Shown piece after piece: positions 7,933-20,864 of a DNA stretch of 38,015 nt. Below the pieces are notes generated by a model. The model was given only the letters and a program-made list of their open reading frames with translations. It searched no databases and had not been told where the DNA came from. The position numbers and the translations under genes are program-made. The DNA is from Acidobacteriota bacterium. Lineage in GTDB: Bacteria; Acidobacteriota; Thermoanaerobaculia; Multivoradales; JAGPDF01. The stretch is from positions 1 through 38,015 of the forward strand of contig JACTMI010000011.1 in the NCBI GenBank assembly GCA_014584695.1, read 5' to 3'. Position 1 is the first letter of the stretch. Each line of letters opens with the position of its first letter.

Positions 7933-8229
7933 ATGCCGATGCGCAGGTTCGTGGCGCTCTCCGGCTGCCTCCTGGCGCTCGCGGGGCTGGGGCTCCAGGT
8001 CTACTTCGACTCCGTCTACGACACCTGGCTCCTGGCCGACGCCTCCGCCCCGCCGGGCCTCGAGGTACCCGGGGACCCGCGGGAAGCGGTGCTCTACCCG
8101 AGCGAGCAGCGGCAGGCGCGCGCGCGCGACGGCGCGCGGCTCGGCCGCGGCGTCGCGGCCGCCGGCGCCCTGTTGATGGTCGGCGGCTTGCTCGGCGCGC
8201 GGCGGCGAGCCGGCGGAGGCGAGCCCTGA
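7933..8229 (+). CDS. Small membrane protein, two hydrophobic segments
   Basis: From ATG 7933 (GGAG about 7 nt upstream) the product has 98 residues. An N-terminal helix (F-V-A-L-S-G-C-L-L-A-L-A-G-L-G-L) and a second near the C-terminus (V-A-A-A-G-A-L-L-M-V-G-G-L-L-G-A) flank a polar loop of about 50 residues. In-frame alternatives are GTG 7921 and ATG 7939. It is unrecognised. It lies between the SDR and GNAT genes on the same strand. Confidence 0.5.
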   Translation: MPMRRFVALSGCLLALAGLGLQVYFDSVYDTWLLADASAPPGLEVPGDPREAVLYPSEQRQARARDGARLGRGVAAAGALLMVGGLLGARRRAGGGEP

Positions 8230-17538: not shown

Positions 17539-18075
17539 ATGCCGCATCGTTTTCCGCAGGAGGCCGTGCTCCGCGACGGCCGACGCGTGATGTTGCGCCC
17601 ATTCGCCCGCAAGGACGTCGGCGCGCTCTACGAGTTCTTCCAGCGTCTGCCGGAAGAGACCCGGCGCTTCGCCTGGGACCGCCTCGACGACCGCAAGGTG
17701 GTGGAGCGCTGGGGGCGCGAGCTCGACTACGCGCAGGTCTTTCCGATGCTGGCCATGGACGGCGGCCGGATCGTCGCCGACGCCACGCTCCACCGGCGCG
17801 ACCGCGGCCCGCTGCGGCGCACCGGGCGGATCAAGTGGACGATCGACCCCGAGTACCGGGGCGTCGGGCTGGGCGCGCTGCTGGTCAACCACTTCATCGA
17901 CGCCGCCCGCGCGAACGGGCTGCGCCACCTGAACTGCATGCTGATCTCGGACCTCGAAGCCGACGCGATCCACGTGCTCGAGACGCTCGGGTTCCAGAAG
18001 CACCGGCTGCCCGGCTACGGCGTCGATCCGGACGGCAATCCGCACGACATGACCTACCTGACGCTCGCGCTCTAG
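17539..18075 (+). CDS. GNAT-family N-acetyltransferase
   Basis: The 178-residue protein has L-R-P-F-A-R-K-D at the N-terminus and the acetyl-CoA motif I-D-P-E-Y-R-G-V-G-L-G-A-L-L, followed by L-G-F-Q-K-H near the C-terminus. This resembles the acetyltransferase module found alone or in Pat-like protein acetyltransferases, but the substrate is unknown. ATG 17539 has GGAGGG 6 nt upstream. Its TAG stop at 18073-18075 is followed in the same frame, without a normal start codon, by the hydrophobic N-terminus of the MltA gene, which raises the possibility of readthrough. Confidence 0.8.
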   Translation: MPHRFPQEAVLRDGRRVMLRPFARKDVGALYEFFQRLPEETRRFAWDRLDDRKVVERWGRELDYAQVFPMLAMDGGRIVADATLHRRDRGPLRRTGRIKWTIDPEYRGVGLGALLVNHFIDAARANGLRHLNCMLISDLEADAIHVLETLGFQKHRLPGYGVDPDGNPHDMTYLTLAL

Positions 18076-18231
18076 GAGACGCGGGCGATCGATCGACGGG
18101 CGGCAGGGCGAGCGCCGAGACGGGACCAGGCGCGCGCCTGGCGCGCCGCGGCGTTCGGCTTCGCGCTGCTCTCCGTCGCGCTCGCGCTGCTCGCCGCCTG
18201 GGCCCTGCGGAGCGGCTTCGGCGTCGAGCCG

Positions 18232-19410
18232 GTGCCGGTGCGGGGCGCCGAGCGGCGCGCGCCAGCGCCGGAGTTGGCGGCGCGACTCGACTTCGCGCCG
18301 GCGAGCTTCGAGGAGCTGCCGGGCTGGCGCGCCGAGCGCCACGCCGAGGCCATCCCGGTCCTGCTCGCCTCGTGCGGCCGGCTGACGGCGGGCGTCGCGG
18401 GGAGCCCCCTGCGGGCGGCGCTCGCGGCCGCGCCGGAGGTGTCGCGGCGCCTCTGCGCCGCCGCGCGAGCGCTGCCCGCCGGGGACGCGGAGGCGGCGCG
18501 CGCGTGGCTCGAGCGGGAACTCGTCCCCTGGGCGGCCTCGAACCGCGGCGTGCGCCAGGGCCTGCTCACCGGCTACTACGAGCCGGAGCTGGCCGCCCGG
18601 CGCCGGCGCGGCGGCCGCTTCGTCCATCCGCTCTACCGTGACCCCGGCGACCGCGTGGTGGTCGACCTGGGCGAGTTCAAGCAGGATCTCGCCGGCCGGA
18701 GGATCACCGGGCTGGTGCGCGGCGGTCGCTTCCGGCCCTACTTCGACCGCGCCGAGATCGAAGGCGGCGCGCTCGGCGGCCGGCGGCTGGAGCTCGCCTG
18801 GGTCGAGGACCCGGTGGCGCTGTTCTTCCTCCAGATCCAGGGCTCGGGGCGGCTCCGTTTCGAGGATGGCTCGCTGCTGCGGGTCGGCTACGCGGCGCAG
18901 AACGGCCACGACTACCTTGCCATCGGCCGCGTTCTGATCGAACGCGGCGAGCTCGCCCGGGAGGAGGTCTCGCTGCAGACCATCCGCGCCTGGCTGCGCG
19001 CCCGCCCGGCGGAGGCCGCGGAGGTGATGAACGCCAATCGCTCCTACGTCTTCTTCCGCGTCCTCGCGGGCGGCGCGCCCGAGGGCGCGGCCGGCGTCGA
19101 GCTGACCGCCGGCCGGTCGCTGGCGGTCGATCCCTCGCACTGGGCCTACGGCCTGCCGCTCTGGCTCGAGACCGTGCTGCCCGAAGCGCCCGAGATCGGC
19201 CGCGCCGCCGCGCCGTTCGCGGCACTGGTCGTGGCGCAGGACACCGGCGGCGCCATCCGCGGTCCCGTGCGCGGCGACCTCTTCCTGGGGCCGGGCGAAG
19301 CGGCCGAGGCGATCGCCGGACGGATGAAGCAGCCGCTCACGCTCTGGCTGCTCTGGCCGCGCGCGCTCGGGGCGCCCCCCGGCGCCGCCGGCCATAGAAT
19401 GGCGCCATGA
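18232..19410 (+). CDS. mltA: MltA-family murein lytic transglycosylase
   Basis: The 392-residue protein has the MltA/3D layout: L-T-G-Y-Y-E-P-E-L, V-E-D-P-V-A-L-F-F-L-Q-I-Q-G-S-G, N-A-N-R-S-Y-V-F-F and the end A-Q-D-T-G-G-A-I-R-G with the catalytic Asp. Such enzymes cleave peptidoglycan to 1,6-anhydro-muropeptides at the outer membrane or periplasm. GTG 18232 is the first ordinary start, but the same frame reads upstream through a hydrophobic segment (A-F-G-F-A-L-L-S-V-A-L-A-L-L-A-A-W, ~18151-18201) that looks like the missing membrane anchor. Between the previous gene's TAG (18075) and 18232 there is no ATG, GTG or TTG. ATC 18088, 9 nt after TAGGAG, is a candidate non-canonical start. pepD overlaps the end by 4 nt. 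Confidence 0.85.
   Translation: MPVRGAERRAPAPELAARLDFAPASFEELPGWRAERHAEAIPVLLASCGRLTAGVAGSPLRAALAAAPEVSRRLCAAARALPAGDAEAARAWLERELVPWAASNRGVRQGLLTGYYEPELAARRRRGGRFVHPLYRDPGDRVVVDLGEFKQDLAGRRITGLVRGGRFRPYFDRAEIEGGALGGRRLELAWVEDPVALFFLQIQGSGRLRFEDGSLLRVGYAAQNGHDYLAIGRVLIERGELAREEVSLQTIRAWLRARPAEAAEVMNANRSYVFFRVLAGGAPEGAAGVELTAGRSLAVDPSHWAYGLPLWLETVLPEAPEIGRAAAPFAALVVAQDTGGAIRGPVRGDLFLGPGEAAEAIAGRMKQPLTLWLLWPRALGAPPGAAGHRMAP
19395..19400 (+). promoter_or_regulatory. -10-like element of pepD (TAGAAT) inside the 3' end of mltA
   Basis: TAGAAT lies 6 nt before the pepD ATG (19407) and within the last codons of mltA. This gives pepD an internal leaderless promoter in addition to possible read-through from mltA. 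Confidence 0.4.
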
Positions 19411-20864
19411 CCACCTTCGTCTCCGAGCTCGAGCCGCGCCCCCTGTGGGCGCACTTCGACCGCATCCTCGCGCTCCCCCGCCCTTCGAAGTCGGAAGAGC
19501 GGATGCGCGCTCACGTCCTCGATCTCGCCGCCCGCCGCGGCCTCGTCCATCGCACCGACAGCGCCGGTAACGTCGTCGTCGAGGTGCCGGCCACGCCCGG
19601 TCGCGAAGGGGCGGCTCCGGTCGTGCTGCAGGCCCACCTGGACATGGTCTGCGAGAAGGACTCCGGCGTCGCCTTCGACTTCGAGCGCGACGCGATCGTG
19701 CCGCGCCGCGAGGACGACTGGCTCTACGCCACCGGCACCACGCTCGGCTCGGACAACGGCATCGGCGTGGCGGCGATGCTGGCGGTGGCGGAGGCGGACG
19801 ACCTGGTCCACGGTCCGCTCGAGCTGCTGTTCACGATCGACGAGGAGACCGGTCTGACCGGGGCGAGCGACCTCGATCCGAAGATGCTGCGCGCGCGCCG
19901 CCTGATCAACCTCGACACCGAGGAGGAAGGGGCGCTCTACGTCGGCTGCGCCGGCGGCGCCGGCACCGACCTCGCGATCCCGCTCGACGCGATGTTCGGC
20001 GCCGACGGGCGCGAAACGGTCGAGGTGCGGGTCACCGGCCTCTCCGGCGGCCACTCCGGAGTCGACATCCACCTCCAGCGCGGCAACGCGATCTCGCTGC
20101 TCGCCCGCCTGTTGTGGGCGAATCTCGCCGAGTTCCAGTTCGAAGTGGCGAGCGTCGAGGGCGGCAACCTCCACAACGCCATCCCGCGCGAGGCGGCGGC
20201 GAAAGTGCGGGTCGCGCGCGACGACCGGGAGCGCTTCGCGGCGGCGATCGCGGCGGAGGCGGCGCGGATCCGGACCGAGCTCGCCGGCATCGACGACGGC
20301 TTCGTCGCCGCGGTCGGCCCGGCCGAGGTCGGCGCCGAGGTGTGGGCCGACGAGACCACCGCGCGGGTGCTGGCGCTGCTCACGGCGCTGCCGCACGGGG
20401 TGCTGGCGATGAGTCACGACATCCCGGGGCTGGTCGAGACCTCGACCAACCTGTCGAAGGTGCGCACCGAGGGGGCGACGCTGCGGATCCACCAGAGCAA
20501 CCGCAGCTCGGTCGGCTCGGCGCTGCGGGCGACGCAGCGCCGGATCGCCGCCTTCGCCGAGCTGGCCCGCGGCACCGCGACCCAGAGCGAGGGCTATCCG
20601 GGCTGGCAGCCCGATCTCTCCTCGGAGCTGCTGGCGCTGATGCAGCGGGTCCACGGCCGGGTGCTGGGCGCCGAGCCGGCGGTCAAGGCGATCCACGCCG
20701 GCCTCGAGTGCGGTCTGATCGGCGAGAAGTTCCGCGGCATGGACATGATCTCGTTCGGCCCCCAGATCGAATTCCCCCACTCGCCGGGCGAGCGGGTGCG
20801 GATCTCGTCGGTCGGCCGGTTCTGGCACCTGCTCGCCGCGGCGCTCGACGAGCTGTCGAAGTAG
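19407..20864 (+). CDS. pepD: Aminoacyl-histidine dipeptidase PepD (M20C)
   Basis: The 485-residue protein is the full-length PepD type. Metal ligands are visible: Q-A-H-L-D-M-V (His and Asp), T-L-G-S-D-N-G-I-G (Asp bridging), D-E-E-T-G-L-T-G (catalytic Glu pair) and G-G-H-S-G-V-D-I near the dimerisation lid. It hydrolyses dipeptides such as beta-alanyl-histidine and other X-His peptides in the cytoplasm. It overlaps mltA by 4 nt (ATGA) and is followed by the amidase 27 nt downstream. No signal peptide is present. Confidence 0.92.
   Translation: MTTFVSELEPRPLWAHFDRILALPRPSKSEERMRAHVLDLAARRGLVHRTDSAGNVVVEVPATPGREGAAPVVLQAHLDMVCEKDSGVAFDFERDAIVPRREDDWLYATGTTLGSDNGIGVAAMLAVAEADDLVHGPLELLFTIDEETGLTGASDLDPKMLRARRLINLDTEEEGALYVGCAGGAGTDLAIPLDAMFGADGRETVEVRVTGLSGGHSGVDIHLQRGNAISLLARLLWANLAEFQFEVASVEGGNLHNAIPREAAAKVRVARDDRERFAAAIAAEAARIRTELAGIDDGFVAAVGPAEVGAEVWADETTARVLALLTALPHGVLAMSHDIPGLVETSTNLSKVRTEGATLRIHQSNRSSVGSALRATQRRIAAFAELARGTATQSEGYPGWQPDLSSELLALMQRVHGRVLGAEPAVKAIHAGLECGLIGEKFRGMDMISFGPQIEFPHSPGERVRISSVGRFWHLLAAALDELSK

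Follow-up and report, generated by a model that had tools for sequence, protein, structure and literature searches.

A membrane-anchored MltA-type transglycosylase gene with a candidate ATC start codon behind a GNAT gene in an Acidobacteriota genome

The mltA locus and its counterparts in related genomes

The window, meaning the whole 38,015-nucleotide stretch of DNA analysed here, is contig C47 of genome G000 (Acidobacteriota bacterium). A dihydroorotate-dehydrogenase-like gene is followed by genes for a GNAT acetyltransferase, a lytic murein transglycosylase A (MltA) and an M20-family peptidase, the last three on the forward strand. The GNAT gene (17539–18075; 178 aa; Pfam Acetyltransf_1, E = 2.9e-10) ends in a TAG stop at 18073–18075 that overlaps a Shine-Dalgarno (SD)-like AGGAG, together reading TAGGAG (18073–18078), with an anti-SD duplex energy of -7.3 kcal/mol. 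Read from its likeliest start, a candidate ATC at 18088–18090, mltA spans 18088–19410, and its TGA stop shares a 4-nt ATGA overlap with the ATG of the peptidase gene (19407–20864; assigned by Pfam). No stop interrupts the MltA frame between 18076 and 19407. On scanning all forward frames, neither ATG, GTG nor TTG was found between 18053 and 18231; the GTG at 18232–18234, the first standard start in the mltA frame, is the only such codon up to 18233. The open but start-less interval that the first-pass annotation had described between the GNAT stop and this GTG is thereby confirmed. A frameshift concealing the start of mltA is ruled out by the same scan, because no forward frame offers a standard codon there.

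The protein matches the MltA-specific insert domain (PF03562; E = 3.3e-59, 200 bits against a cut-off of 24.3) and the 3D domain (PF06725; E = 2.5e-18), and has PDB relatives 7esj, 2pnw, 2g5d and 2ae0. Its active-site segment QDTGGAIRGPVRGD aligns to QDTGGAIAGEVRAD of 7esj, and the Asp in this segment is presumably catalytic. Translation of 18088–18231 gives IDRRAAGRAPRRDQARAWRAAAFGFALLSVALALLAAWALRSGFGVEP, an N-terminal signal anchor in which basic residues precede a hydrophobic core of 17 residues (about 18148–18198; Kyte-Doolittle mean 2.36). The first-pass annotation had recognized a hydrophobic anchor behind basic residues; it is indeed present, and it is also kept in the MltA proteins of the relatives G001, G002 and G007. 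Compared with G001, the anchor has a dN/dS of ~0.63 over 29 codons, a weak sign of constraint. A codon-usage scan that was blind to the mltA finding placed the start of coding at 18124, 36 codons before GTG 18232. With annotation limited to ATG, GTG and TTG, the export anchor would be lost and the enzyme labelled cytoplasmic.

The MltA family acts on murein outside the cytoplasm, and E. coli MltA carries a lipoprotein signal. The protein described here resembles its E. coli counterpart in combining MltA and 3D domains, and its PDB matches include E. coli chains, but it differs in having a signal anchor without a lipobox Cys. No Cys occurs in the anchor, and hence no lipoprotein signal of the E. 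coli type. Such a signal does not define all MltA members; those of the same order have either transmembrane anchors or Cys-ended segments.

Among eight genomes of the family, four contain this MltA and seven the GNAT protein. In G001 (same genus, 72% identity), mltA starts with GTG 50 nt past the GNAT stop and in a different frame; in G002 and G007, it starts with TTG at 6 and 0 nt past the stop, respectively, in register with GNAT. The corresponding gap to ATC in G000 is 12 nt. None of the three relatives that carry the gene pair keeps the non-canonical start. In G004 and G005, GNAT is followed by other sequence. In G003, the GNAT gene (L067, minus strand) lies near a contig end, with ~70 bases after its stop and an inverted-repeat-like stretch; the contig end in this stretch is probably an assembly edge, and mltA is not seen in G003 because the contig ends there. 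Across the order, 50 of 72 genomes have an MltA match. Of 49 loci that were read, one per genome (leaving aside G056, the G001 duplicate L005, and L006–L019 from other phyla), 48 show a standard start close to the anchor by a permissive criterion, which accepts ATG, GTG or TTG up to 60 codons ahead of the hydrophobic core or slightly within it. The mltA gene of G000 is the sole exception.

Other genes without a standard start

The codon-usage scan covered 782,305 bases of G000 with 591 called genes, and retained genes whose coding signal begins 12 or more codons ahead of their first standard start. Twenty genes passed. One was mltA; another was infC, which thereby served as a positive control that had not been planned. 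By reading, which was not blind, five of the 20 were taken as genuinely lacking a standard start: mltA, infC, glmM, a sigma-like gene and the nucleotidyltransferase gene NTP_transf_5. The other 15 were set aside; several that lack a Pfam match resemble antisense frames, others offer a credible standard start ahead of, or close to, the part that Pfam supports, and one, the GGDEF gene at L108, may be a fragment. Pfam was run on part, not all, of these 15.

As read from the sequences, the genome uses ATC for infC, and so do all five family genomes with a match (G000, G001, G002, G003 and G007); the upstream codons shown for these five, up to 60, contain no ATG, GTG or TTG. Among the family genomes searched, G005 gave no infC match. 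In the infC region of G038 (L073), the 20 codons shown before the match are likewise free of ATG, GTG and TTG, and AAGGAGG is followed by a possible CTG start.

The remaining three genes present CTG. In glmM (L118:12999, contig C38), it overlaps the end of the upstream gene as CTGA, 6 nt after the SD motif GAGGAG; ATG or GTG occupies the same codon in three relatives and lies within two codons of it in three others. The CTG of the sigma-like gene (L105:13823, C25) corresponds to ATG in G006, and G001 has GTG two codons earlier. Read by eye, a possible leader frame of 16 codons, opened by ATG, terminates in the CTGA at this site. NTP_transf_5 (L090:10989, minus strand, C10) has its CTG in a CTGA overlap as well. 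Its start could be compared in two of the five relatives with a match, which have ATG (G004) and GTG (G005) at the same codon; the first standard start in G000 would cut into the Pfam domain. Judged from sequence, the ATC and CTG starts of infC, glmM, the sigma-like gene and NTP_transf_5 look like a habit of the genome and not like sequence error.

In control scans, 12 of 299 genes passed in G007 and eight of 309 in the distant, near-complete genome G049. None of the former and two of the latter were judged clear cases by reading, with Pfam consulted for a few. In G049, an epimerase gene (L164:about 11465) and a methylpurine glycosylase gene (L174:about 16757) each have a CTGA junction with no standard start close by.

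The start of mltA and competing readings

Before the anchor core, the only codons one mismatch away from ATG are ACG 18079, which abuts the SD, and ATC 18088, which is separated from TAGGAG by 9 nt. Called genes with GGAG-type motifs show a spacing peak at 5–8 nt, and 14 of them have 9 nt. An SD duplex of -7.3 kcal/mol is matched by 34% of called genes versus 5.3% of 3000 random positions in the window. Among 8911 GGAG sites, an ATH codon in a given frame at a spacing of 5–10 occurs at 2.8%, and any near-cognate codon at 13.8%; these statistics are suggestive and favour ATC 18088, short of proof. Initiation at ATC would place 17 residues before a conserved Trp, close to the lengths in G001 and G002. 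The locus thus combines an anchor that is present and conserved, the absence of a standard start, and an SD placed as in normal genes. We consider it reasonably likely that mltA is intact and encodes a membrane-anchored lytic transglycosylase, predicted to cleave murein, and that its translation begins at the non-canonical ATC 18088, guided by TAGGAG. The latter had been proposed in the first-pass annotation and emerges as the better-supported reading, given the ATC of infC and the other start-less genes of the genome. The ATC itself was read from one genome, the sole representative of its species in the set analysed.

The most serious competitor, to which we assign a minor but real share of the probability, is that an ordinary start near 18088 was lost, through either a base error or a genuine mutation in the strain; mltA would then be normal in the species, or silenced in strain G000. 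The standard starts of mltA in G001, G002 and G007 are in its favour. G000 also departs from its relatives time and again: they have ATG or GTG where three of its genes show CTG, and a standard codon in every G000 case except infC. The sample from G007 gave no clear case either, and together these points leave some probability to a peculiarity of the strain or assembly. Random errors frequent enough to explain all these cases are, however, difficult to reconcile with the sampled genes, although one mutation or local base error confined to mltA would be compatible with them. Four lost starts (mltA, glmM, the sigma-like gene and NTP_transf_5) in 591 genes imply ~2.5e-3 errors per base, at which ~41 nonsense codons would be expected. 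Among 16 candidates in the sampled G000 genes, where coding signal crosses an in-frame stop, there was no clear nonsense codon; one is the GNAT–mltA junction itself, and 12 have a standard start at most 11 codons after the stop. Moreover, the ATC of infC is common to five genomes, and two CTGA-junction genes without a near standard start occur in G049 as well. A screen for frameshifts, based on coding signal in other frames, flagged 210 genes; it was too noisy to bound the indel rate and was not used. The homolog comparison suggested by the first-pass annotation as a check for sequence error did reveal standard starts in the interval (GTG in G001, TTG in G002 and G007). As proof of an error it fell short: the intergenic stretch is too diverged to name a changed base, and there is no sign of a high error rate.

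Initiation at a different non-canonical codon, either ACG 18079 or a two-mismatch codon nearer the anchor, is improbable. The coding signal is clear only from 18124, leaving 18088–18123 not proven to be coding, which is compatible with a start further downstream. Against this, ACG 18079 has a spacing of 0 from the SD, no other single-mismatch codon besides these two precedes the core, and the 17 residues between ATC and the conserved Trp agree well with G001 and G002.

Still less probable is a start at GTG 18232, which would yield a protein without an export signal. Although this codon is the first standard start in frame, beginning there would drop an anchor that relatives retain, the coding signal reaches 36 codons farther upstream, and the family is known to work on murein outside the cytoplasm; on the grounds of anchor conservation, we rejected it. 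Read-through of the TAG to give a GNAT–MltA fusion, the alternative raised in the first-pass annotation, is the least likely of all and finds no support: the two frames are in register in G000, G002 and G007 but out of register in G001. Moreover, TTG starts follow the GNAT stop in G002 and G007, TAG is an ordinary stop that ends 110 of the 591 called genes, and it is hard to see what purpose a cytoplasmic enzyme in front of an anchor would serve. The arrangements in G001, G002 and G007 thus both disfavour a fusion and fix the place of the mltA start.

Known systems, proposed mechanism and stop-start junctions

Non-canonical start codons are already known, and mltA adds one gene with a rare start codon to them. 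According to PMC5472188, infC starts with ATT in E. coli and ATC in Streptomyces and is repressed by IF3, and Streptomyces sigR starts with GTC, for which IF3 repression was tested. The infC genes of E. coli (ATT), Streptomyces (ATC) and S. aureus (ATA) share with mltA a near-cognate start with an SD, and infC of G000 itself has ATC; unlike them, mltA does not code for a translation factor, and its relatives do not keep the non-canonical start. Like mltA, sigR is an ordinary gene whose non-canonical start is expected to lower output, but its GTC start is established by experiment (PMC5472188), whereas the ATC of mltA is a candidate from sequence. In S. aureus, AUU and AUA starts gave ~10% of AUG output in poor medium, as described in PMC13009471. 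In the same paper, cvfC1 (AUU) and ccpN (AUA) also combine a near-cognate start with an SD; there the SD is extended and the codon conserved, in contrast to the 5-base SD and unconserved codon of mltA. A search of the literature for 'Acidobacteria' together with 'non-canonical start codon', in that wording, returned nothing.

Termination–reinitiation pairs (ATGA/TGATG) resemble the GNAT–mltA pair in that the start lies just past the upstream stop and the SD at the end of the upstream gene; they differ from it in its 12-nt gap and non-canonical start (PMC6728339 and PMC10666635). The term CTGA does not appear in the part of PMC6728339 available to us. In PMC10666635, coupling falls steeply with distance, overlaps or gaps of -8 to +10 nt are taken as predictive of coupling, and +11 to +20 nt is excluded as gene-dependent. 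The 12-nt gap is within this variable range, and coupling of mltA to GNAT is therefore plausible, not assured.

We infer that either the ribosome that terminates on GNAT or a new 30S subunit binding the TAGGAG SD may initiate at ATC 18088, that ribosomes finishing GNAT would help this initiation, and that IF3 would act as repressor. Since IF3 rejects near-cognate codons, MltA would be expected to be made at a low, IF3-sensitive level; the ATC is probably a weak start downstream of GNAT that responds to IF3. Low output might suit an enzyme that cuts the cell wall.

The more interesting part is a hint that, in this clade, near-cognate starts cluster where one gene stops and the next begins. Ribosomes that reinitiate may tolerate a broader range of start codons, leaving a set of genes truncated by annotation; we regard this wider reading as tentative and somewhat doubtful. 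In G000, the set would include glmM and NTP_transf_5 in CTGA overlaps, probably the HprK-like gene described below, the sigma-like gene, whose CTGA ends the possible 16-codon leader, and mltA at 12 nt after TAG; in G049, it would include the epimerase and DNA glycosylase genes with their CTGA overlaps. If so, genes with relaxed starts may respond to IF3. Were non-canonical starts a real class in the clade, gene starts, signal peptides and a layer of IF3-dependent control would have been missed, and relaxed start choice at stop-start junctions would be directly testable.

A scan of NTGA junctions in G000 found that five of 19 CTGA junctions have no standard start within -20 to +12 codons, an under-count given that glmM and NTP_transf_5 are missing from its list. 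Of the five, two are followed by an ATG farther downstream and one seems to fall within a repeat protein; L114 and position 8226 of the window remain. At L114:10046 (minus strand, C34), an HprK-like gene, named from a look at its sequence, follows a signal-peptidase-like gene through a CTGA junction, and a standard start is absent for ~60 codons. At 8226, a second acetyltransferase-like frame, likewise identified by look, follows a 102-aa gene via a CTGA junction, and its first standard start comes ~14 codons later.
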